Position numbers and translations under genes: made by a program | Assembly: GCA_903822005.1 (NCBI GenBank) | Contig: CAIJNL010000002.1 | Location: 1 to 64,000, forward strand | Source of the DNA: an uncultured Nitrospiraceae bacterium | Lineage (GTDB): Bacteria; Nitrospirota; Thermodesulfovibrionia; Thermodesulfovibrionales; Dissulfurispiraceae | Direction: 5' to 3' | DNA: 64,000 nt | In this document: in pieces, positions 7,485 through 19,775 of the stretch | Numbering within the stretch: the first letter of the stretch is position 1 | How the letters are laid out: each line of letters opens with the position of its first letter | Notes under the pieces: generated by a model | Database searches by the model: none | What the model saw: the letters and a program-made list of their open reading frames with translations, nothing else | Told to the model about the DNA's origin: nothing

Positions 7485-9356
7485 TCAGGAATATTTAATT
7501 CCAAGGCGCCTGAGTTTGCGCCATAGGGTGGAGCGGCTCATGCCAAGTATTTTTGCCGCCTCCGAATATTTGCCTTTGGTCAGAATGAGCGTTTTCCTGA
7601 TTTCCTCAGCCTCATCATGCATTATACTGACAGGTGCAATATCATCCTGCTGGTCCGCAAGCATAAGCCTGATGACATCGGCATCAATCGTTTCCTGTTT
7701 ATGTACTGCAATAACGCGCTCAATAAGGTTTTTCAATTCCCTGATGTTGCCGGGCCAGGAATATTCGACCAGCACTTTCAGGGCAGAAGGTGAGAGCTTA
7801 ATATGCCGCTTTATAATGCCTGCATGTTCTCTCAGGAAATACTCCGACAAAAGCCCTATATCTTCTTTCCGGTTGCGAAGAGGAGCGATCCTCAACTGAA
7901 GAACATTCAGGCGATAGTATAAATCAGCGCGGAATTTATTGTCGCTTACCAGTTGCTTCAGGTCTTTATTGGTAGCAGCGATGATGCGTACATCAACAGG
8001 TATCACCCGGTCGCTGCCGAGACGCATGACCTTTTTTTCCTGCAGTACCCGCAATAATTTCCCCTGAACAGCATAATCCATCTCGGCAATCTCATCAAGG
8101 AAAATGGTCCCTTCGTGTGCAACCTCGAACAGGCCTAATTTGCCCTTTGGGTTTGCGCTGGTGAAAGCGCCGCCCACATAGCCGAAAAGTTCACTCTCGA
8201 GTATCTGTCCGGGCAGGGCAGCGCAGTTAATTGCTACAAAAGGCCCTTTATTACGGCTGCTATAATTATGCATGCTCTGCGCAAAGACCTCTTTGCCTGT
8301 GCCGGTCTCCCCGAGGACCAGTATGGAGGAATGGGTCAGGGCAAAGTCTTTCGCAATATTTATGGTCTGCTGCATTACCTGGCCTGTTTTCTCGATATCA
8401 GAAAAGCAAAAACTTGCGGTATGTCCCGAATCATAAATGCGTCTTCTTACCCGGGCATCCATCTGCTGGATCTGGTTTACGTCCTGGAACGTAACAACAA
8501 CACCGACGACATTGCCATTTACGACAATCGCAATCTTGTTGCAGAGGACATCTATTTCATTGATTTTTAAAATTTGGCCGATATCATCTTTCCCCGTAAG
8601 GATGACCTGCTCCAGATTGAGATCAGGCCAGATTTCGGATATTCTTTTCCCGACGGCCCCGACGCCATCAACACCCGTGATGCGCTGCGCGACTGGATTG
8701 AAAAAAGTCACGCTAAACTCGCTGTCCACAGAGATGATGCCTTCGTAAGCATAATCAAGCACTGCTCTGAACAGGTTCGTCTTCGTCTGTTCCAGTTTTC
8801 GGGCGTACGCAATACGCTCCGCTTCCTGCGCCGCCTGCAATATGCCCTCTGCTCCGCTTTCGACAAGAACGCAGGGACGGTTATACCTGTGTGCCACAAC
8901 GTCAGTGATGACGCCGCCGATTATGCTGTCAACACCATCCTGAAACGCCCTTAAAACCTGGCTTTCTGTGTCATATTCGTTTCTTAATGGATATAGTCTG
9001 AAGTCGACTCCAAGGATCGGCGCCAGGCATTCAATGCCCGAGATCATGTAGGGAAACGCCACTACACCTATCCTGCTGCCATAAAGTTTTGCTTTCTCGA
9101 CTGTCCTGATAATATCGAAACCGGTAACCGGGATTTCAACAACTATAACTTCAAGCCCGGACTCCCTTATCGCCTGCGCGGTTCCTCCGCGTGTGATGAT
9201 CACTTCAGTCCCGGAGCTGACCATAGATGCGGCAACATTTACGCCTTGACTCAATAACCCTTTTCCAATGAGAATATCATCGTGAACTCCATGAAAAACT
9301 TCACGCGCCTTTTCGAACATATTATCATCTGGTGCGAGGAAAGCAATGCGTGACAT
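7485..9356 (-). CDS. PrpR-type sigma-54-dependent activator
   Basis: A 623-residue enhancer-binding protein. An N-terminal PrpR-like sensor domain (about 1-190) is followed by a PAS domain (about 200-310), an AAA+ sigma-54 interaction domain (about 320-550; Walker A GETGTGKE, Walker B TIFLDEI, arginine region FRADLYYRLN) and a Fis-type helix-turn-helix at the end (SEAAKILGMSRSTLWRKL). The PrpR_N domain usually senses a small organic acid or CoA-derived ligand. The sigma-54-contact loop reads GAFTSA instead of the usual GAFTGA. The ATG at 9356 follows AGGAGAAGG. The gene diverges from the DASS transporter, whose promoter is sigma-54 type, so it most likely controls the 9.5-18.5 kb genes. Confidence 0.93.
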   Translation of the reverse strand: MSRIAFLAPDDNMFEKAREVFHGVHDDILIGKGLLSQGVNVAASMVSSGTEVIITRGGTAQAIRESGLEVIVVEIPVTGFDIIRTVEKAKLYGSRIGVVAFPYMISGIECLAPILGVDFRLYPLRNEYDTESQVLRAFQDGVDSIIGGVITDVVAHRYNRPCVLVESGAEGILQAAQEAERIAYARKLEQTKTNLFRAVLDYAYEGIISVDSEFSVTFFNPVAQRITGVDGVGAVGKRISEIWPDLNLEQVILTGKDDIGQILKINEIDVLCNKIAIVVNGNVVGVVVTFQDVNQIQQMDARVRRRIYDSGHTASFCFSDIEKTGQVMQQTINIAKDFALTHSSILVLGETGTGKEVFAQSMHNYSSRNKGPFVAINCAALPGQILESELFGYVGGAFTSANPKGKLGLFEVAHEGTIFLDEIAEMDYAVQGKLLRVLQEKKVMRLGSDRVIPVDVRIIAATNKDLKQLVSDNKFRADLYYRLNVLQLRIAPLRNRKEDIGLLSEYFLREHAGIIKRHIKLSPSALKVLVEYSWPGNIRELKNLIERVIAVHKQETIDADVIRLMLADQQDDIAPVSIMHDEAEEIRKTLILTKGKYSEAAKILGMSRSTLWRKLRRLGIKYS

Positions 9357-9422
9357 TATCCTTCTCCTCATATGATACAATTTGAAACGAAGTACAACAA
9401 TAATAAACATTTGACGCCATAA

Positions 9423-9488
9423 TTGCAACGTCCATATTTGATAGTCCTTGATATATAAGAAAGTTTACACATTGGCACGATTCATGCC
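9423..9488 (+). promoter_or_regulatory. sigma-54 promoter with upstream activator site
   Basis: A -24/-12 element TTGGCACGATTCATGCC at 9472-9488 matches the sigma-54 consensus with correct GG to GC spacing. A TTGCAACG half-site starts at 9423, 49 bases before the promoter motif, and a weaker TTGAAACG lies at 9382-9389. The same pairing recurs before the lactonase gene, so TTGCAAC is the likely binding site of the neighbouring PrpR-type activator. Confidence 0.8.
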
Positions 9489-9529
9489 CAATAATAATGG
9501 GTCTAACATATTTAGAGGAGGTGCCTGCT

Positions 9530-10930
9530 TTGAATAACATGGTTCGCGGATTAATAGTCCTGGCCATTGGCGCTGTAATTTGGTTCATACCCGTGCCTGA
9601 TGGCGTAAAACTCGAGGCATGGAGGTTACTGGCCATATTCGTTGCTACGATTGCCGGTTTTATTCTTCAGCCATTGCCGATCGGCGCTATAGCGATTATA
9701 GCGGTATCGGTCACTATCCTGCTGGGTGTACTGAAGCCTGGAGAAGCCCTGTCAGGCTTCAGTAATGCCACGATATGGCTTATTGTTTCAGCCTTTCTTT
9801 TTTCAAGAGGATTCATCAAGACCGGGTTTGGACGACGAATAGCTTATATGCTTATCAGGAAATTTGGGGACCGCACTCTTAAGCTGGGATATATTCTTGC
9901 CGCGTGCGAATTTATCTTTGGTCCTTTTACACCTTCCAACACGGCCCGCGGCGGCGGAATCATCTACCCGATAGTCCGCAGTCTTGCGACCGCGTTCCAG
10001 TCAGAACCGGACCACTCACCCCGCAGGATAGGCGCTTATCTGATGTTTACGGAATATCAGATGAACTGCATTTCATCAGCGCTCTTCATGACAGCAATGA
10101 CAGGCAATCCCCTAATCGCCCAGTTTGCCTCAAAAACACTCAATATAGAAATAAGCTGGGGTTTGTGGACATTAGCTGCCATTATCCCCGCACTGCTCTC
10201 AATGCTCGTAATACCATATTACCTGTATAAAGTGTATCCACCCGTTGTTACACATACGCCTGAAGCCAGGACCCTGGCAGAAGCCGAGCTAAAGGCAATC
10301 GGCCCCCTGACGCGTGGAGAAAAGGTCCTGGCGGCAATCTTCGTCTGCGCGCTTCTTTTGTGGTCTACCTCCTCTTATACAAAAATAGATGCCACTGCAG
10401 TTGCGCTGCTGGCTGTTTCCGTCATGATGATCACTAAAGTTATTAGCTGGAATGATGTACTTGAGGAAAAAGGTGCCTGGGACACATTTGTCTGGATGGG
10501 CAGCCTGGTTGGTCTGGCCACCTTCCTTGAAAAACTCGGGCTCATTTCATGGTTTGCCAAATCAGTAAGCGCGGGACTGGTCGGTATTTCGGCCGCACCG
10601 GCCTTCCTCTTAATACTGGGGCTCTACATGTATTCTCACTATGGGTTTGCGAGCATGGTAGGCCATATTGTAGCGCTCTATTCTGCCCTCGTCGCCGTTA
10701 TGGTATTGGCCGGGGTACCTCCTTATCTGGCAGCGCTTTCGATGGCATATGCGTCAAGCCTTTGCGGTTCACTGACCCATTACGCAGCCGGTCCTGCTCC
10801 TATCTATTTCGGGTCCGGATATATCAAACAGCATACATGGTGGAAACTCGGATTCTATATCTCGATCATAAACCTCGTAATCTGGATCGGGATAGGCCCC
10901 ATCTGGTGGAAGGTCCTCGGGCTCTGGTAG
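9530..10930 (+). CDS. DASS-family dicarboxylate (tartrate/citrate:succinate-type) transporter
   Basis: A 466-residue inner-membrane transporter with about 12 hydrophobic segments, of the divalent anion:sodium symporter/antiporter family that includes CitT, TtdT and plant SodiT1. Marks are the SNTARGGGIIYPI motif in the middle and GSLTHYAAGPAPIYFGSGY near the end. The start was set at TTG 9530, seven bases after GAGGAGGT; ATG 9539 and ATG 9497 fit the ribosome site worse. First gene after the sigma-54 promoter. With a D-tartrate dehydratase in the same operon, tartrate/succinate or tartrate/anion exchange is the best guess for its substrate. Confidence 0.88.
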   Translation: MNNMVRGLIVLAIGAVIWFIPVPDGVKLEAWRLLAIFVATIAGFILQPLPIGAIAIIAVSVTILLGVLKPGEALSGFSNATIWLIVSAFLFSRGFIKTGFGRRIAYMLIRKFGDRTLKLGYILAACEFIFGPFTPSNTARGGGIIYPIVRSLATAFQSEPDHSPRRIGAYLMFTEYQMNCISSALFMTAMTGNPLIAQFASKTLNIEISWGLWTLAAIIPALLSMLVIPYYLYKVYPPVVTHTPEARTLAEAELKAIGPLTRGEKVLAAIFVCALLLWSTSSYTKIDATAVALLAVSVMMITKVISWNDVLEEKGAWDTFVWMGSLVGLATFLEKLGLISWFAKSVSAGLVGISAAPAFLLILGLYMYSHYGFASMVGHIVALYSALVAVMVLAGVPPYLAALSMAYASSLCGSLTHYAAGPAPIYFGSGYIKQHTWWKLGFYISIINLVIWIGIGPIWWKVLGLW

Positions 10931-10978
10931 ATCGAGCGGTTGTCCTTATGCTGCTAAATCTGATTTAAGGGAGTTTAT

Positions 10979-12232
10979 ATGCATGCTATAGAAAAAATTC
11001 TGGCCAGGGCCGCTGGTATGAAAGCGGTCAAAACAGGAGAGATCATAAACTGCAAGGTAGACCTGGCCGGGATAAATGATCTTTATCTGCAGACAATACG
11101 GTCTTTCTTTGAGATGGGCGGCAACAGGGTGTCCGATCCGGGTAAAGTGATAGTGTTCCTAGACCATTACGCGCCCGCTTCAACTATTGCCCAGGCCGAC
11201 AATCAAAAACAGTTCCGCGAATTCTGCTGGGACCAGGGAATTGATCTCTTAATGGACATTGACCAGGGGGTCTGTCACCAGGTATTGGCAGATAAGGGGA
11301 TGTCATATCCGGGTGAGGTAATTGTAATAACGGATTCTCATGCGACAACTCACGGGGCCTTCGGCGCATTCGGTACCGGAGTGGGCGCAACAGATCTCGC
11401 AATCATCCTTGCCACTGGACAGCTTTGGTTCCGGGTGCCCGAAATTATCCGCATCAACCTGGAAGGCGGGCTGAAGAAGGGTGTCTATTCCAAAGATATT
11501 GCACTCCACATTATCGGCACTCTTGGAGCTGATTACGGTGTCTACCGGGCTGTAGAGTTCACGGGCCCGGTCCTCAGGGATCTCGGCATATCAGAGCGAA
11601 TGGCTCTATGCAATATGACGACTGAAATGGGGGCAAAGACGGCCTACATACAACCTGATGAAATAACCACCTCTTTTCTCAAAAACAAGATGAAGCAGGA
11701 TTATACCGTCTTCACCACTGATTCCGGGTACGCTTATTTTGCAGAGCATACCTTTGACGTAAGTAATCTTAAACCTCAAGTTGCCGCGCCTCACAGCGTC
11801 GATAACGTGGCTGATGTCGTCAAATATGCCGGCAAGCCGATTAATCAGGCTTTTCTAGGCACATGCACGGGCGGCCGAACCGAAGACCTGGCCGTGGCAG
11901 CCGCCATTCTGAAGGGGAAACATATTAATCCCCGGACGCGGTTTATAATAGTTCCTGCCTCCAAGTCGGTCTTTCTTGAAGCTATGAACAGGGGATATAT
12001 TCAGGCCCTGGTTGAAGCCGGTGCTACATTCGTCACCCCGGGATGCGCTGCATGTCTTGGCACTCATCAGGGAATACTGGCTCCAGGAGAGACATGTATC
12101 ACCTCATCCAGCAGGAATTTCCCCGGACGTATGGGACATGGCAAGGCAGAGATTTATGTGGCTTCCCCTGCAGCCGTTGCCGCTGCTGCTCTGGAGGGCA
12201 AAATTGTTGACCCTTCCGACTATGTCAAATAA
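10979..12232 (+). CDS. aconitase-superfamily hydro-lyase, large subunit (LeuC/HacA type)
   Basis: A 417-residue protein of the 3-isopropylmalate/homoaconitate dehydratase large-subunit family. The [4Fe-4S] ligands are C296 in GTCTGGR and C356 and C359 in GCAACLG. The motif TDSHATTHGAFGAFGTGVG at 118-136 is typical. Members catalyse reversible hydration and dehydration of hydroxyacids; besides LeuC and HacA the family includes maleate hydratase, citraconate-forming enzymes and 2,3-dimethylmalate dehydratase. No leucine genes are nearby. In a dicarboxylate operon a maleate, malate or tartrate-related dehydratase is more likely than leucine synthesis. It pairs with the small subunit that starts 13 bases downstream. 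Confidence 0.88.
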   Translation: MHAIEKILARAAGMKAVKTGEIINCKVDLAGINDLYLQTIRSFFEMGGNRVSDPGKVIVFLDHYAPASTIAQADNQKQFREFCWDQGIDLLMDIDQGVCHQVLADKGMSYPGEVIVITDSHATTHGAFGAFGTGVGATDLAIILATGQLWFRVPEIIRINLEGGLKKGVYSKDIALHIIGTLGADYGVYRAVEFTGPVLRDLGISERMALCNMTTEMGAKTAYIQPDEITTSFLKNKMKQDYTVFTTDSGYAYFAEHTFDVSNLKPQVAAPHSVDNVADVVKYAGKPINQAFLGTCTGGRTEDLAVAAAILKGKHINPRTRFIIVPASKSVFLEAMNRGYIQALVEAGATFVTPGCAACLGTHQGILAPGETCITSSSRNFPGRMGHGKAEIYVASPAAVAAAALEGKIVDPSDYVK

Positions 12233-12245
12233 GGAGCAATAAAAT

Positions 12246-12758
12246 ATGGAAAAAATAATTAAAGGTAAAGCCTTTGTGTTCGATGCAAATATCGATACCG
12301 ACCAGATATATCCCGGCAGGTTTCTGGATTTGACGGACCCTGAAGACGTTGCAAAACATGCCATGGAAGGCGCTGATCCGAATTTCGTGAGGACAGTAAA
12401 AAAAGGAGACCTTATCGTTGCCTCTACTAATTTCGGCTGCGGTTCGAGCAGGGAGCATGCTGCCGTTACCCTGAAGGCCGCAGGCATCGGGGCAATACTG
12501 GCGGATTCATTCGGAAGGATATTTTACAGGAATGCGATAAATCTGGGGATACCTGCAATTGTCTGCCCTGATATCAGGAGCTCCGTTAGCAAAGGCGATT
12601 TATTAAGCGTAAATGTTGCATCCGGAGAAATAATTAATGAGACTACCGGCGCCATTCTGAAGGCACAGCCCTTTTCACCTTATGTGATGAGTATTCTTGA
12701 CAATGGCGGAATTAAGTCACTCGTAAAGGGTCAACTTCAGGAACAGGGACTTAAATAA
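12246..12758 (+). CDS. aconitase-superfamily hydro-lyase, small subunit (LeuD/HacB type)
   Basis: A 170-residue swivel-domain subunit that completes the active site of the large subunit. It has the family's NFGCGSSREHA motif at 62-72 and the substrate-gating region near the N-terminus, where DTDQIYPGRF replaces the bulkier LeuD loop sequence. That loop (about 18-30) determines substrate choice in this family, so it is the place to look when asking whether the substrate is isopropylmalate, homoaconitate or a C4 acid. The gene starts with AGGAGC upstream and directly follows the large subunit. Confidence 0.88.
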   Translation: MEKIIKGKAFVFDANIDTDQIYPGRFLDLTDPEDVAKHAMEGADPNFVRTVKKGDLIVASTNFGCGSSREHAAVTLKAAGIGAILADSFGRIFYRNAINLGIPAIVCPDIRSSVSKGDLLSVNVASGEIINETTGAILKAQPFSPYVMSILDNGGIKSLVKGQLQEQGLK

Positions 12759-12849
12759 CCAGTATAATAAGTAACTGATTGTCGGGCGCGATATCGCCGC
12801 TGTCAGGGAAAATGGGAATCATGACAACAAACATTTTGGGGGCTTGTTT

Positions 12850-14262
12850 ATGAAAAAACGTATTCAATTCATGTTAACGGCATTCAGGGACGGGTTCCAG
12901 TCGGTGTATGGTGCACGCGTATTTTCAAAGGATTATCTGCCTGTTGTCGAAGAAGCAGCACATGCAGGGATTGAACATATCGAGTCTGGCGGAGGCGCCA
13001 TGTTCCAGGCTCCCTATTTTTATAGTAATGAAGATGCTTTCACCGTAATGGATTCATTTCGCCGGGCTGCAGGCCCTAACGTCCATCTCCACTCGCTCGC
13101 AAGAGGAGTTACTGTCATCGCACTCGATTCTCAGCCGAGCGATATAGTAAATCTTCATGCCAAGCTGTTTAAAAAGCACGGCATTAATACTATACGCAAT
13201 TTTGACGCATTGAATGATGTCGACAATCTGATCTACTCCGGCCAATGCATCAATGACGCCGGATTAAAGCATGAGGTAACGATCGCCATGATGGAGTTGC
13301 CTCCCGGCTGCGAGGGAGCGCATACAGCAGAATTTTATATTGCGACATTACAAAAAATCCTTGATGCCGGCATCCCTTACGATTCCATCTGTTTCAAGGA
13401 TGCCTCCGGCACGAGTCGCCCCCAGAAGGTATTTGAAACCATAAAGATGGCAAGAAATCTTTTGGGTGAAGGCGTCAAGATATCTTTTCATTCACACGAA
13501 ACAGCCGGAGTATGTACCCTGGCTTATAAAGCCGCAATTGACGCCGGCGCTGATATGATAGATCTCTCTCTTGCTCCCGTTTCTGGCGGAACATGTCAGC
13601 CGGATATACTGACAATGTGGCATGCGCTCAGGGGGACCGATTACTCTCTTGATATTGATGTTAACAAAATCATTAAGCTTAGGGCCTCGTTCAAAGAGGC
13701 CATGAAGGACTATTTCCTGCCGCCGGAGGCCGTAGCAGTCGAGGCCCTGATCCCGTTCTTTCCGATGCCGGGCGGTGCCCTGACTGCAAATACGCAGATG
13801 CTCCGGGATTACGGACTCCTGGACAGGTTCCCGGAGATCATGGAAGCGATGGGAGAAACAGTCGCAAAAGGCGGTTTCGGCACTTCGATAACCCCGGTAT
13901 CACAATTCTATTTCCAGCAGGCCTTCAATAACGTCATACTGGGAAAATGGATGAACATTGCTGAAGGTTACGGCAAGATGGTACTCGGATATTTCGGCAA
14001 AACACCCGTCAGCCCGGATCCGACAATTGTAGAACTCGCGAAAAAACAGCTGGGGCTTGAACCGACAACTGAAGGCCCTCTGTCAATCAATGATCGCGAT
14101 CCTGACAAGGGTATTCCTGCAGCAACAAAAAAGCTCGAAGCTGCAGGATTGCCAATAACAGACGAGAATATTTTCATAGCCGCCTGCTGCACTGAAAAAG
14201 GAATAGCATTCCTGAAGGGCCAAGGGACTGTTGGTGTACGCAAAGAGACCTCAAAAACATAA
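12850..14262 (+). CDS. oxaloacetate decarboxylase/pyruvate carboxylase-type carboxyltransferase subunit
   Basis: A 470-residue protein of the HMGL-like/PYC_OADA group. The carboxyltransferase barrel shows the RDGFQS start (R13, D14), the carbamylated-lysine motif CFKDASGT (K183) and the metal pair HSH at 214-216. The helical domain typical of OadA/PycB follows. The C-terminus has no biotinyl domain: there is no (A/V)MKM motif, and the protein ends in a short charged tail. It should move CO2 between oxaloacetate and biotin, giving pyruvate, if a separate biotin carrier exists; otherwise it may decarboxylate directly. ATG 12850 follows a G-rich ribosome site; TTG 12844 is an alternative. Confidence 0.82.
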   Translation: MKKRIQFMLTAFRDGFQSVYGARVFSKDYLPVVEEAAHAGIEHIESGGGAMFQAPYFYSNEDAFTVMDSFRRAAGPNVHLHSLARGVTVIALDSQPSDIVNLHAKLFKKHGINTIRNFDALNDVDNLIYSGQCINDAGLKHEVTIAMMELPPGCEGAHTAEFYIATLQKILDAGIPYDSICFKDASGTSRPQKVFETIKMARNLLGEGVKISFHSHETAGVCTLAYKAAIDAGADMIDLSLAPVSGGTCQPDILTMWHALRGTDYSLDIDVNKIIKLRASFKEAMKDYFLPPEAVAVEALIPFFPMPGGALTANTQMLRDYGLLDRFPEIMEAMGETVAKGGFGTSITPVSQFYFQQAFNNVILGKWMNIAEGYGKMVLGYFGKTPVSPDPTIVELAKKQLGLEPTTEGPLSINDRDPDKGIPAATKKLEAAGLPITDENIFIAACCTEKGIAFLKGQGTVGVRKETSKT

Positions 14263-14327
14263 ATAAAACTTGTCGTACCGGTTATTCCGGGTCAAATAAA
14301 AAAATATCTTAAACAGGAGAGTATTGC

Positions 14328-15494
14328 GTGAGAATCAAAGAAATACGTGAACAGACAGTTTCAATTGCATCACCTATTACCAACGCCTATATCGACTTTT
14401 CCAAAATGACATGTTCCGTGGTTGCCGTTATTACAGATATGATCAGGGACGGCAAACCGGTCGTAGGGTACGGCTTCAATTCCAACGGCCGCTACGGCCA
14501 GGGCTCGCTAATGAGGGAGAGGATTATCCCCCGTGTCATGGAAGCTGATCCGAAGTCTCTTGCGGACGAGACAGGTGAAAATCTCGATCCTTTTCGCATC
14601 TGGGACACTATGCTTAAAAACGAGAAACCCGGCGGACATGGTGAAAGGTCCGTGGCGGTTGGCACCATTGATATGGCAGTATGGGATGCAGTTGCAAAAA
14701 TGGCGGGGAAACCTCTATATCGTCTGCTCGCGGACCGCTATCGGGACGGTAAAGCCGACTCCAAAGTTTTTGTCTATGCAGCCGGTGGCTACTACTATCC
14801 GGGCAAGGACCTGACCGCCCTCAAGAATGAAATGAAGAAATACCGCGATATGGGATACTCGGTAGTAAAGATGAAGATCGGAGCCGCATCCCTGGATGAA
14901 GACATCCGGCGCATTGAAGCAGTGCTTGAAGTCGTTGGCGAGGGCAAGTTCCTGGCAGTGGATGCAAACGGGCGTTTTGACCTCAAGACTGCTATTGCTT
15001 ATGCAGATGCCATGAAGCAGTACGGTCTCTTCTGGTATGAAGAAGCGGGAGACCCGCTCGATTATGAACTCCAGGCAGAGCTTTCAAATCACTATCCCCA
15101 TCCCATGGCAACTGGAGAAAATCTGTTTTCGCACCAGGACGCGCGCAACCTGATCCGCTACGGCGGCATGCGTCCTGACCGCGACTGGCTCCAGTTCGAT
15201 TGCGCGCTTTCCTACGGCCTAGTCGAATACCTGCGTACGCTTGAGGTACTTAAACAGTATGGTTGGTCAACACGCAGGGTCGTGCCGCACGGCGGGCACC
15301 AGATGTCCCTGAATATTGCAGCTGGCCTGCATCTGGGCGGGAATGAATCCTACCCGGGCGTTTTCCAGCCCTTCGGCGGGTTCGCAGACGGCATTTCAGT
15401 CGAGCATGGATATGTTGGACTGCCGGACGTGCCCGGCGTCGGCTTCGAGACTAAAAAAGAACTCTTTGCCTTGATGAAAAAATTAAGCGACTGA
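14328..15494 (+). CDS. tarD: D-tartrate dehydratase (enolase superfamily)
   Basis: A 388-residue mandelate-racemase-type enolase closely resembling D-tartrate dehydratase of Bradyrhizobium japonicum. It converts D-tartrate to oxaloacetate and water. Metal ligands are D212, E238 and E264; catalytic bases are K183 in the KMK motif and H321 in VPHGGHQ. These align one residue away from the residues I recall for the characterised enzyme. Long identical-looking blocks include NSNGRYGQG, NEKPGGHGERSVAVGTIDM and SHQDARNLIRYGGMRPDRDW. Starts at GTG 14328, seven bases after AGGAGA. This is the gene that best defines the pathway; its product feeds the carboxyltransferase encoded just upstream. Confidence 0.9.
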   Translation: MRIKEIREQTVSIASPITNAYIDFSKMTCSVVAVITDMIRDGKPVVGYGFNSNGRYGQGSLMRERIIPRVMEADPKSLADETGENLDPFRIWDTMLKNEKPGGHGERSVAVGTIDMAVWDAVAKMAGKPLYRLLADRYRDGKADSKVFVYAAGGYYYPGKDLTALKNEMKKYRDMGYSVVKMKIGAASLDEDIRRIEAVLEVVGEGKFLAVDANGRFDLKTAIAYADAMKQYGLFWYEEAGDPLDYELQAELSNHYPHPMATGENLFSHQDARNLIRYGGMRPDRDWLQFDCALSYGLVEYLRTLEVLKQYGWSTRRVVPHGGHQMSLNIAAGLHLGGNESYPGVFQPFGGFADGISVEHGYVGLPDVPGVGFETKKELFALMKKLSD

Positions 15495-15579
15495 TCACCG
15501 CGGAGCCTGACGATAGTCATGCTGCCTGCTTTTCAAAAATGCCTTTTCCTGATAACATGTCGTTTGAAGGAGATGGATA

Positions 15580-17103
15580 ATGGCTGATTCAGGACGATTG
15601 AACATACCGCTGCTCGATGACAATAACCGCGGGCTGCTGGCTAACGTTCATCCGGCGGGCTGGCACAATCCCGAACCTAAACCTATTTACAATCTTGTCG
15701 TTATTGGAGCCGGAACTGCCGGCCTTGTCTCTGCCATGGGCGCAGCAGCTCTGGGCGCAAAAGTCGCTCTTGTTGAACGCGATTTTATGGGCGGTGATTG
15801 CCTGAACATAGGCTGCGTACCTTCCAAGAGCCTGATAAGTTCGGCCCGCATGGCCCACCGTATGCGTCATGCAGGCGTTTTCGGCCTGCCGGCTGTCTCT
15901 ACCGGAGCAGACGCTTTCCCGGCTGTCATGGAGCGTCTCAGGCGGATCAGGCGTGATATCAGCACAAATGATTCAGTCTCGCGTTATACCGCTGCAGGCG
16001 TTGATGTATTCTTGGGCAGCGCAAGCTTTGAGGGGCCTGACCATATCAGCGTTGACGGGAAAAAACTGCGCTTCAGAAAGGCGGTGATTGCTACCGGCGC
16101 CAGGGCGGTTCATCCCGTAATAGAAGGACTCGATGAGGCTGACTTTCTAACAAACGAGACCGTATTCAATTTGACCAAACTGCCACGCCGCCTTCTCGTC
16201 ATAGGTGGAGGGCCTCTCGGGTGCGAGCTTGCGCAGGCATTCAGCCGCCTCGGTTCCGAAGTTTTTATTGTTCAGAACAGCCGTTTCCTGCCAAAGGAAG
16301 ATCCGGATGCATCAGCCCATCTGGCCCGCGTCCTGGAACGTGAAGGCATAAAAATTCGACTTAATGCAAAACCGGTCAGAGTTATTACGCATCAGAATCA
16401 CAAATCGGTCCTCATAAAGACACCCGATGGGGAAGAACTGATTGATGTGGATGAGATACTTCTCGGCGCAGGACGCCAGCCCAATGTTGAAGGTCTTAAT
16501 CTTGAAAAGGCCGGCGTAAACTATGACTCAAGGAACGGTGTAATAGTGGATGACTTTTTGCGAACCTCTAATACCCGTGTCTATGCTGCCGGTGACATCT
16601 GCCTGTCTCATAAATTCACACATGCCGCTGAAGCTTCCGCCCGCATCGCCATTCAAAACTCTCTTTTCCTCGGCAGAAAAAAACTGAGCGCCCTCACAAT
16701 ACCCTGGTGTACTTACACCGACCCTGAAATCGCACACGTAGGGTTGTATGAACGGGAAGCGGATGACCGGCGGATTGAGACAACGACTTTCCGGATTGAG
16801 ATGAACATGGTAGACAGGGCCGTCTGCGACAGTGAAGAAGAAGGTTTCATCAAGATTATTGTCAAAAAGGGTTCTGACAGAATACTCGGGGCTACCATTG
16901 TCGCATCTCACGCTGGAGATATGATAAGTGAAATATCTGTGGCGATGTCGGCGGGAAGCGGTCTTGAAAGACTCTCACGCGTAATCCATCCATATCCAAC
17001 CCGGGCAGAGGCAATAAAGCGTGCTGCCGATTCATACAACAAAACCCGTCTGACATCCCGGCTTAAAAAGATTCTTGCATGGTGGCTCCATAGATCCATA
17101 TAA
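15580..17103 (+). CDS. mercuric-reductase-type FAD/NAD(P) disulfide oxidoreductase
   Basis: A 507-residue class I pyridine-nucleotide-disulfide oxidoreductase. It has an FAD-binding GAGTAG near 43-48, redox-active cysteines C74 and C79 in GDCLNIGCVPSKSLI, an NAD-binding GGGPLGCELAQ in the middle and a dimerisation domain. The usual catalytic His motif of the partner subunit appears as HPYPTRAE near the end. It lacks the extra metal-binding cysteines of true mercuric reductase, so the name is only a family label. A 38-residue N-terminal extension precedes the FAD domain. Last gene of the first sigma-54 operon; its substrate here is unknown, and nothing obvious in a tartrate pathway requires it. 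Confidence 0.82.
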   Translation: MADSGRLNIPLLDDNNRGLLANVHPAGWHNPEPKPIYNLVVIGAGTAGLVSAMGAAALGAKVALVERDFMGGDCLNIGCVPSKSLISSARMAHRMRHAGVFGLPAVSTGADAFPAVMERLRRIRRDISTNDSVSRYTAAGVDVFLGSASFEGPDHISVDGKKLRFRKAVIATGARAVHPVIEGLDEADFLTNETVFNLTKLPRRLLVIGGGPLGCELAQAFSRLGSEVFIVQNSRFLPKEDPDASAHLARVLEREGIKIRLNAKPVRVITHQNHKSVLIKTPDGEELIDVDEILLGAGRQPNVEGLNLEKAGVNYDSRNGVIVDDFLRTSNTRVYAAGDICLSHKFTHAAEASARIAIQNSLFLGRKKLSALTIPWCTYTDPEIAHVGLYEREADDRRIETTTFRIEMNMVDRAVCDSEEEGFIKIIVKKGSDRILGATIVASHAGDMISEISVAMSAGSGLERLSRVIHPYPTRAEAIKRAADSYNKTRLTSRLKKILAWWLHRSI

Positions 17104-17131
17104 ATCGCTGGTTTCTCCGCGCAACATACCG

Positions 17132-17226
17132 TTGCAACGAAAGTCTCACGATCCGGCAATATTGCAACACCGCATGAGCAGCAACCCTGTTTTTTCAATA
17201 TATTCCACCTTGGCACAAATCATGCC
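17132..17226 (+). promoter_or_regulatory. second sigma-54 promoter with tandem activator sites
   Basis: A -24/-12 element TTGGCACAAATCATGCC spans 17210-17226. Two TTGCAAC sites lie upstream at 17132 (inside the perfect palindrome CGTTGCAACG, 17130-17139) and at 17162, about three helical turns apart. The nearer one is 48 bases from the promoter motif, almost the same distance as before the transporter operon. A third GTTGCAAC palindrome is at 17302-17309, between promoter and gene. Confidence 0.82.
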
Positions 17227-17340
17227 CTATAAATCTGCCCTGTCGATGGATTCTGTTTTATCAGCATTTCACATATTCGTATCAAGATTCAAAGCGAAAG
17301 TGTTGCAACCATATCTACTTACAAACGAGAAGGAGGTTCT

Positions 17341-18495
17341 ATGAAAGTTATGAAAACGCTGGCCTTATGTCTATTTATCCAGCTATTGGGGGCAGCGCTC
17401 CTGGTCCTGGCAGTTGAGGCAAAGACCTTTGTTTACGTTTCCTGCGCGGACGACTCGGAAATTGCAATCATGGAGATAAATCCTGACAATGGAGACCTGA
17501 CACTGATTGAAAAGGTCAAGACCGGAAAGACCGTCATGCCTATGGCCGTGAGCCCTGATCGGCGGTTCCTATACGCCTCCATCCGTTCGATTCCCTTTTC
17601 CATTGCGTCTTACGCCATCAACCCCGGCACTGGTCAATTGAGCCACCTGTCGACGGTTCCCCTTCCCGACAACATGGCCTATATCTCCACGGACAAAACA
17701 GGCCGCTTCCTCTTCTCCGCTTCTTACGCCGGACACAAGATCAGCGTGAACCCGATCGGAGATAAAGGCTTTGTTCAGGCGGTGCCGACGCAGGTAATTA
17801 ATACTGGCCAGCACGCCCATGCGGTCCTGTCGGATACCTCCAACCGGTTTGTGTTTGTTCCGAATCTGGGGGTCGACCAGGTGATGCAGCTGGTTTTTGA
17901 CGAAAAAACCGGTATCCTGACTCCGAACAAGCCGGGCTTTATTAAAACGAAGCAAGCTGAGGGGCCGAGACATTTTACCTTTTCCCCAGACAGCAGGTTC
18001 GTCTATTTGCTCAATGAACTGACCGGCTTTGTCAATGTCTATGCAATGGATAATCAGACCGGGCTGTTGACGGAGATACAGACCATTTCTTCGATACCAC
18101 CGGGTGCCTATCTTATCCCCGGGAAGCCAGGACCTCCTATCGGCGGCACTAATCCGCCCCGCAAGGTCGATAGACCCGAGATATGGGCATCCGACATCCA
18201 TATCACTCCGGATGGCCGGTTTGTGTATACCGCGGAAAGAACAGGCAACTCCCTGTCCGCGTTTTCGGTTAATGGCGTAACAGGAAAGCTTACCTATATC
18301 GACAGTTATGACACGGAAGCGCAGCCACGCGGTATAAGGATAGATCCCAGGGGCAACTTTGTCATTGCCGCCGGACAGAAGTCGGCACATGCTTCGGTCT
18401 ACGGAATCAACAAAGCAACTGGGGAGTTGAAATTTCTGAAGCGCTACCGGGTTGGCAATGATCCAAACTGGATCGAAATTGTTGAGTTTCCCTGA
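17341..18495 (+). CDS. exported lactonase-like seven-bladed beta-propeller
   Basis: A 384-residue protein of the lactonase/6-phosphogluconolactonase (YbhE, PF10282) family. Residues 1 to about 27 form a signal peptide (LALCLFIQLLGAALLVLAVEA), so it is periplasmic or exported, unlike the cytosolic Pgl of sugar metabolism. Repeated blade units are visible (for example FVYVSCADDSEIAIMEI, FSPDSRFVYLLNELTG and TPDGRFVYTAERTGNSL). Translation starts at an ATG right after GAAGGAGG. It is under its own sigma-54 promoter of the same design as the transporter operon, so it is probably induced with it; opening a lactone form of the substrate outside the cytoplasm is a reasonable guess. Confidence 0.8.
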   Translation: MKVMKTLALCLFIQLLGAALLVLAVEAKTFVYVSCADDSEIAIMEINPDNGDLTLIEKVKTGKTVMPMAVSPDRRFLYASIRSIPFSIASYAINPGTGQLSHLSTVPLPDNMAYISTDKTGRFLFSASYAGHKISVNPIGDKGFVQAVPTQVINTGQHAHAVLSDTSNRFVFVPNLGVDQVMQLVFDEKTGILTPNKPGFIKTKQAEGPRHFTFSPDSRFVYLLNELTGFVNVYAMDNQTGLLTEIQTISSIPPGAYLIPGKPGPPIGGTNPPRKVDRPEIWASDIHITPDGRFVYTAERTGNSLSAFSVNGVTGKLTYIDSYDTEAQPRGIRIDPRGNFVIAAGQKSAHASVYGINKATGELKFLKRYRVGNDPNWIEIVEFP

Positions 18496-18739: not shown

Positions 18740-18767
18740 GACAGTTAACTAAGGGGAGGGATTGTGT

Positions 18768-19775
18768 ATGGAAGAAAAAGAATCCAAAACAGGCAAATCA
18801 GGATTGAGCAGACGGGGTTTTCTGCAGGCTGTCGGGGTTATTGGCGCGGTTACTGTTGCCAAACAGGCGATGGCACAGATGCCCACCCTGGTTGCCGCCA
18901 ACCCGCTCGAGGGAGCGATTGAGATGCATGTCCATGCAGGCCCTGATGTATCCTCCCGCTCTGTCAACGACTTTGAACTCGCAAAGAAGGCCAAAGAGCT
19001 CGGAATGCGTGCAGTCGTTACGAAAAACCATGAATTTATCACCAATGACCGGGCCTATCTCGTAAGGCAGATTATTCCCGGGATCGAAGTGTTCGGCGGC
19101 CTTACCATGAATGAATCAGTCGGCGGTATCAGTCCTTACTCTGTCGACCTCATGCTCAAGTTCACCGGCGGATGCGGAAAGATCGTCTGGCTGCCGACTC
19201 ATGGAGCGGCCCATCACAAATCGTTCTTTGCCAAAAAAGCTGACGCCGGCGGCATCCGTGTGATTGATTCTTCAGGCAAGGTCATACCGGAACTGCGCAA
19301 AGTCCTGAAGCTGATTGCCAAGGCTGACGTAATTTTCGCCACTGGTCATGTTTCACCAAAAGAGGTTATCGCGTCGGTAAAAGCGGCCAAAGAAGAAGGC
19401 GTGCGGAAGGTATTGGTAACACATGCCCTGCAGTCCCCCGGAGAGTTGTCACTTGATGACCTCAAGCAATGCGTTGAAAACGGTGCCTATATCGAGCATT
19501 GCTACAGTTCTTACCTTATGGGGCCGCAAGCGAGTCTGGCCTGGATGCGGGGCTGGAAACATATCTCGATTGCCGATTTTGTTACCGCGATCAAAACGGT
19601 CGGCGCTGACAAGTGCGTAGTAGCATCAGACCTCGGACAATTCATGAATCCGACACCAGCAGACGGATTAAAGGAATTTGTCTTGAACCTCAAGACAGCG
19701 GGAATAACTGATGCACAGATGGACCTTATGATCAAGAAGAATCCGGCCCGCCTATTGGGTCTTGACCCCATGTAA
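18768..19775 (+). CDS. Tat-exported DUF6282-type TIM-barrel metallohydrolase-like protein
   Basis: A 335-residue protein with a twin-arginine signal (SRRGFLQAVG near residues 13-22, then a hydrophobic stretch ending AMA). The body resembles the DUF6282 family of amidohydrolase/PHP-like barrels: an MHVHAGPD motif near the mature N-terminus, later single histidines (TKNHEF, THGAAHHK, TGHVSPKE, THALQSP) and an acidic ASDLGQ near the end, all suited to a metal centre. The substrate is unknown. ATG 18768 sits 7 bases after the ribosome site. It follows the lactonase by 272 bases and may be a separate transcription unit with its own palindromic operator. Confidence 0.75.
   Translation: MEEKESKTGKSGLSRRGFLQAVGVIGAVTVAKQAMAQMPTLVAANPLEGAIEMHVHAGPDVSSRSVNDFELAKKAKELGMRAVVTKNHEFITNDRAYLVRQIIPGIEVFGGLTMNESVGGISPYSVDLMLKFTGGCGKIVWLPTHGAAHHKSFFAKKADAGGIRVIDSSGKVIPELRKVLKLIAKADVIFATGHVSPKEVIASVKAAKEEGVRKVLVTHALQSPGELSLDDLKQCVENGAYIEHCYSSYLMGPQASLAWMRGWKHISIADFVTAIKTVGADKCVVASDLGQFMNPTPADGLKEFVLNLKTAGITDAQMDLMIKKNPARLLGLDPM

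Follow-up and report, generated by a model that had tools for sequence, protein, structure and literature searches.

A predicted PrpR-type sigma-54 regulon with phased direct TG(A/C)AAC repeats in an uncultured Nitrospiraceae bacterium

The closest described counterparts of the regulatory system analysed here are the PrpR proteins of Salmonella enterica and Escherichia coli (prpBCDE), which combine a PrpR_N domain, an AAA+ domain and a Fis-type helix-turn-helix (HTH) domain and are encoded divergently from a sigma-54-dependent operon. A similar arrangement was detected in the genome of an uncultured Nitrospiraceae bacterium (assembly GCA_903822005.1, here G000; 3.23 Mb), within positions 1 to 64,000 of contig CAIJNL010000002.1 (hereafter the window; all unlabelled coordinates are positions in this stretch of 64,000 nucleotides). 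There, a putative activator gene lies divergent from a transporter operon, and a second operon starting with a lactonase gene carries matching promoter signals. According to the relevant table of PMC4987338, which cites a study from 2004, the Salmonella PrpR enhancer is CGTTTCATGAAACG, and its TGAAAC half-site is shared with the arrays in the window. The Salmonella system differs in that CGTTTCATGAAACG is an inverted repeat and the ligand is 2-methylcitrate, whereas the protein in the window has a PAS domain and its proposed sites are mostly direct TGCAAC or TGAAAC repeats 10 bases apart. The E. coli prpR-prpB region contains four TGAAAC words on one strand with spacings of 10, 12 and 12 bases (shuffle frequency 5e-5).

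The TTGCAAC word of the window is also that of Xanthomonas citri, whose PrpR, in the excerpt of PMC12153269 used here, shifts GTTGCAA-N2-TTGCAAC in gels; the shift was lost upon deletion of either half and was kept when two middle bases were added or removed. The X. citri protein differs in being a reported repressor, in its inverted repeat and in being connected to propionate genes, and its protein family is not stated in that excerpt. The PrpR of X. oryzae is described as an RpoN-interacting enhancer-binding protein (EBP) in the corresponding section of PMC8657755. Partial accounts of EBP regulons are furthermore available for Clostridiales, where EBPs with a PrpR_N domain are listed (PMC6615313), and for Desulfovibrio vulgaris, where the distance to the upstream activating sequence (UAS) is at most 100 bases for the largest share of promoters (PMC4641369). 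Both resemble the present locus in having UAS and sigma-54 promoters upstream of EBP-adjacent operons. They differ in that the common UAS consists of TGT and ACA half-sites 9-12 bases apart, and the sections of both papers considered here give no phased direct array of TG(A/C)AAC (written TGMAAC below).

Since TG(A/C)AAC equals the published half-sites of Salmonella and X. citri, the word itself is not new for PrpR, and the published half-sites (TGAAAC or TGCAAC) are present in the window. The sites before the activator genes of the window and its relatives mostly lack the published inverted-repeat arrangement, though the lactonase promoter has a palindromic GTTGCAAC at 17131-17138. The predicted one-sided, phased direct layout differs from the palindromes in the cited papers. 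No phased direct array for PrpR was recognised in our literature search, which carries no claim of absence from print.

Our analysis supports the prediction of a new PrpR-type regulon in which a known half-site is repeated directly and in helical phase. We consider it likely that the PrpR-type activator binds direct-repeat arrays of TG(A/C)AAC, switches on both sigma-54 operons, represses its own gene and responds to a tartrate-type inducer. The elements concerned are the following:

7485..9356, minus strand: PrpR-type sigma-54 activator gene, divergent from the transporter operon, with PrpR_N, PAS, AAA+ (Sigma54_activat) and HTH_8 domains (Pfam)
9373..9429, plus strand: half-site array with TGATAC at 9373, TGAAAC at 9383, TACAAC at 9393, degenerate words at 9403 and 9413 and TGCAAC at 9424; proposed to serve activator binding and autoregulation
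9472..9488, plus strand: sigma-54 -24/-12 element of the transporter operon, GG at 9474-9475 and GC at 9486-9487
17120..17168, plus strand: proposed activator half-sites of the lactonase promoter, CGCAAC at 17120, GTTGCAAC at 17131-17138 and TGCAAC at 17163, lying 91, 78 and 48 bases from TGG
17210..17226, plus strand: sigma-54 -24/-12 element of the lactonase operon, GG at 17212-17213 and GC at 17224-17225
17302..17309, plus strand: GTTGCAAC palindrome within the 5' leader of the lactonase gene, 93 bases past the -24 element

Sigma-54 promoters require GG and GC ten bases apart, and the gap between the GG of the -24 and the GC of the -12 region is ten bases in both elements. The initial annotation had placed TTGGCAC(G/A)-N4-ATGCC before the transporter operon and the lactonase gene; both copies, TTGGCACGATTCATGCC at 9472-9488 and TTGGCACAAATCATGCC at 17210-17226, were located with zero mismatches. 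The claimed distance of 48-49 bases was also confirmed: TTGCAAC begins at 9423 and at 17162, which places it 49 and 48 bases before TTGG. The further claim of a second site three to four helical turns away holds for the lactonase promoter, where an exact TTGCAAC at 17132 lies 30 bases beyond the proximal site (~2.9 turns); at the transporter operon the word starting at 9382, 41 bases beyond the proximal one (~3.9 turns), is TTGAAAC and therefore one letter off. Besides these sites we noted CGCAAC at 17120, TGATAC at 9373, TACAAC at 9393 and the leader palindrome at 17302-17309. The array layout of 9373-9429 is also seen in relatives.

By itself, TTGCAAC is about as frequent in the window as expected (11 observed, 9.7 expected). 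The genome-wide search for the paired motif, which had been proposed as a check, returned exactly two matches to TTGCAAC-N36-62-TGGCAC-N6-TGC, both at these promoters, and none in the reversed control. Dinucleotide-shuffled upstream regions had TGMAAC 46-49 bases from TGG with a frequency of 0.004 per promoter, and two TTGCAAC words at the lactonase promoter with a frequency of 0.00045. The core TTGGCAC-N5-ATGCC has exactly three copies genome-wide, and 36 matches with at most one mismatch compared to 7 in the reversed control. The third exact core promoter (C36:87548), which has no TGMAAC within 130 bases, was dropped as a target.

Conservation of the word was assessed in 37 activator upstream regions, those of the window and 36 relatives. 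Left out of these counts were nine duplicates of later loci (L053-L055, L057, L060-L062, L064, L065) as well as L066, L068, L069, L079-L081 and L067, whose best match starts at residue 308. In this last case (L067:914-2766) the relative of the activator is split over two frames near residue 307, possibly due to a frameshift or an assembly error. A good sigma-54 promoter, defined by a score >= 19.5 in our own scoring, was present in 30 of the 37 regions, and the seven regions below this value were excluded from the distance counts.

Upstream of the 30 promoters, the promoter strand holds 87 copies of TGMAAC and the opposite strand 12. The nearest word lies 46-49, 57-60, 69-72, 79, 88-91 or 101 bases from TGG, with four exceptions (23, 123, 131 and 145 bases). 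Taken together, the 87 sites show helical phasing (R 0.61, period 10.7 bases), and after reduction to a single region from each 80%-identity cluster (25 regions; TGMAAC 72 versus 9) the 25 nearest sites gave R 0.66 at a period of 10.5 bases, both being Rayleigh values for a period chosen near the best fit and for related sequences that are not independent. The distances in the window, 49 and 90 bases at the transporter operon and 48, 78 and 91 bases at the lactonase operon, are in phase within ~1.5 bases; an AGCAAC at distance 31 is out of phase. Partner counts included all 87 sites: a direct partner 9-11 bases away was seen for 45 and an inverted or overlapping partner for 7. Base counts around the sites used 81, those too near an end being excluded. 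For 16 regions the 130 bases adjoining the activator start were examined with the looser word T[GA][ACT]AAC, which occurs 34 times on the divergent strand and 4 times on the other (shuffles 6.0, maximum 16), and pairs 9-11 bases apart number 12 compared to 0.056 in 1000 shuffles (maximum 3). From the small regulon with a predicted binding word that had been claimed, the shared word thus stands, phased and conserved upstream of the activator gene in most of the relatives examined, but is better written as TG(A/C)AAC in a phased direct array.

The assignment of the divergent gene as PrpR-type was borne out by its PrpR_N (PF06506, E 2.8e-38), PAS and Fis-type HTH_8 domains (PF02954, E 1.1e-9). 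It also has an AAA+ domain (PF00158, E 1.3e-66) with the Walker A motif GETGTGKE, but with GAFTSA at the position of the GAFTGA loop. The protein reaches 356 bits against the strict propionate regulator equivalog TIGR02329, which has a cut-off of 499, and its neighbours are not prp genes; it is a PrpR-type protein and not the propionate regulator. Its recognition helix reads SRSTLWR, and that of most word-bearing relatives [SND]R[STA]TLWR. TGMAAC is missing from the 130 bases in L063 (HRMTLRR) and L092 (DRTTLYR), in line with a trend between helix and word. The trend is weak, since L113 (NRTTLYR) has one such word and the three relatives L059, L114 and L117 described below have none. In the own genome, the paralog G000:C2:227836-229725 (L071), with the helix NRSTLYR, is accompanied by a different, TGATGCAT-like word repeated around a divergent sigma-54 promoter, hinting at a possible helix-word code.

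Several points weigh against the proposed regulon. The sigma-54 contact loop of the activator reads GAFTSA instead of GAFTGA, which could weaken the contact; among 47 proteins GAFTGA was found in 44, GAFTSA in two (the activator and L097) and GAFTGS in one. L097 retains the words and the promoter. TGMAAC is absent from the 130 bases adjoining the activator in L059, L114 and L117, although their helices read SRSTLWR or NRSTLWR; a good sigma-54 promoter is likewise missing there. The lactonase was found in one of 100 relatives at E <= 1e-50, namely itself, and its site is therefore without a phylogenetic test. Furthermore, paralogs with similar helices (C23, C33) could bind the same word, and a -35 box explains the proximal TTGCAAC at 9423 equally well.

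The lactonase operon, and possibly a chemoreceptor gene described below, might thus be activated by a PrpR-like paralog with the same word rather than by the divergent activator. At least eight such paralogs are encoded in the genome; the helix SRTTLWR occurs in those designated C23 and C33, the latter of which is preceded by TGAAACGTTTCA. This explanation seems unlikely, since the paralog genes lie on other contigs than the window, and since the lactonase promoter resembles the transporter promoter in both core sequence and site distance (48 versus 49 bases).

The second reading of TTGCAAC at 9423, overlooked by the initial annotation, involves a candidate sigma-70 promoter of the activator gene:

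9423..9428, minus strand: candidate -35 box TTGCAA, overlapping the proximal TTGCAAC
9400..9405, minus strand: candidate -10 box TATTAT, 17 bases from the -35 box

Because of this overlap, TTGCAAC at 9423 alone is no proof of activator binding. The proximal word might merely be the -35 box of this divergent promoter (TTGCAA-N17-TATTAT) and its likeness to the lactonase site coincidental, the more so as in 9 of the 37 regions TTGCAA is the -35 box of the top-scoring sigma-70 candidate. We regard this as improbable. No divergent gene is located upstream of 17162, where the preceding gene is co-oriented and ends at 17103. Twelve relatives with long intergenic regions have further words away from the activator's promoter, 18 of them on the sigma-54 promoter strand (mean of 1.9 and maximum of 7 in shuffles) and 4 on the opposite one, with four exact 10-base pairs compared to 0.0035 in shuffles. 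In addition, elements closer to the activator start than the -10 box are not promoter boxes, and PrpR of X. citri binds the word according to the excerpt of PMC12153269. Since long-region relatives carry words off the activator's promoter and the lactonase site has no divergent gene, the enhancer reading was kept. That the arrays chiefly autorepress the activator, activation proceeding via other, unrecognised sites, is the least probable explanation: although in short intergenic regions they sit between the -35 box and the ribosome-binding site of the activator gene, their distances hold helical phase with the sigma-54 promoter, long regions have words well upstream of the activator's promoter, and no activator promoter is present near the lactonase sites.

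In the regulon we propose, the ligand-sensing activator (7485-9356) would recognise a row of TG(A/C)AAC half-sites that all have the same orientation, recur roughly every helical turn and share one side of the double helix. It would occupy them at a distance of 48 to 100 bases before the sigma-54 promoters at 9472 and 17210. ATP would be used to open the sigma-54 RNA polymerase, by which the DASS-LeuCD-OadA-dehydratase-flavoprotein operon and the lactonase-DUF6282 operon would be switched on. The first array covers the candidate sigma-70 promoter from the -35 box towards the ribosome-binding site; due to this overlap, binding of the activator should repress its own gene, which would result in autoregulation. 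The genes of the two operons are predicted as follows:

9530..10930, plus strand: DASS-family dicarboxylate symporter (Pfam PF00939, NCBIfam TIGR00785), start TTG at 9530 or ATG at 9539
10979..12232, plus strand: LeuC/HacA-family hydratase large subunit
12246..12758, plus strand: LeuD/DmdB-family hydratase small subunit
12844..14262, plus strand: HMGL/PYC_OADA protein, oxaloacetate decarboxylase / transcarboxylase 5S-like
14328..15494, plus strand: enolase-superfamily dehydratase, close to Bll6730
15580..17103, plus strand: flavin pyridine-nucleotide oxidoreductase (NCBIfam NF004991, above cut-off)
17341..18495, plus strand: seven-bladed lactonase-like protein (Pfam PF10282)
18762..19775, plus strand: DUF6282 amidohydrolase-like protein (Pfam PF19799), probably sharing a transcript with the lactonase gene

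The first operon encodes a close relative of the D-tartrate dehydratase Bll6730, a point missed by the initial annotation; this supports tartrate as the substrate and fits the expression test with tartrate that had been proposed there. The similarity to Bll6730 (PDB 1tzz, 2dw6, 2dw7) extends over the full length (E ~2e-189) and includes the KMK and HGGH segments. The predicted route would lead from tartrate to oxaloacetate, followed by decarboxylation by the OadA-like protein, and tartrate itself, or a metabolite that the operon enzymes derive from it, is the most likely inducer.

Among 395 genomes of its own phylum the activator was found at E <= 1e-160 only in G000 itself. No ortholog was recovered from the genomes of the same order: all 60 match at E <= 0.001, but the best-scoring among the listed places outside G000 has 41% identity. 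In the class to which a Sporomusaceae relative belongs, 27 of 380 genomes have the activator at E <= 1e-180, with up to 70% identity. In L053, L054, L056 and L057 a LeuC of 75-79% identity adjoins the activator gene and is divergent from it, and DASS or LeuC is found next to the activator in many other loci. This distribution, together with the LeuC and DASS neighbours, points to a probable transfer between phyla. A search of the intergenic DNA against a plasmid collection gave no match. The strict combined pattern is too narrow for a census, with matches in 2 of the 380 class genomes, each of which carries the activator, and none in the reversed control. Homologs of DASS, lactonase and DUF6282 are encoded in Pelosinus propionicus (L063) close to a pair of adjacent activator homologs, so the association of the activator with lactonase and DUF6282 may be wider.

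More tentatively, a PrpR-type branch might read, instead of palindromes, a one-sided, helically phased ladder in which as many as six half-sites resembling TG(A/C)AAC span ~51 bases. The protein subunits would stack along a single DNA face and stay in register with the sigma-54 promoter, the ladder would serve both as enhancer and as the activator's own operator, and the module would have crossed phyla and captured a second operon.

Using the wider pattern TGMAAC-N36-66-TGGCAY-N6-TGC, six matches were found in the own genome: the two promoters of the initial annotation, three with a single word and one before a gene for a methyl-accepting chemotaxis protein (HAMP and MCPsignal domains; G000:C2, ~233,190; L121:1624). 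This gene is preceded by the sigma-54 element CTGGCATAATACTTGCC and by four TGMAAC words within 130 bases, one forward and three inverted, and lies ~4 kb from a PrpR-like paralog. The chemoreceptor gene may thus be a third member of the predicted regulon. In Anaerospora hongkongensis a PrpR_N chemoreceptor is encoded within an operon beside the activator ortholog (L054:2280-3446, minus strand), which suggests that the same ligand class could drive transcription and taxis in this organism.

The match between two promoters is thereby developed into a testable binding rule, comprising half-site, strand, spacing and phase, for a group of PrpR-type activators of the Negativicutes and their relatives. 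If the ladder is the true target, it would depart from the palindromes of the cited papers and raise the question of how a hexameric activator makes use of half-sites that stand in a row and are all equal. The rule may also provide a route to D-tartrate-type regulons and their member genes, for example chemoreceptors.

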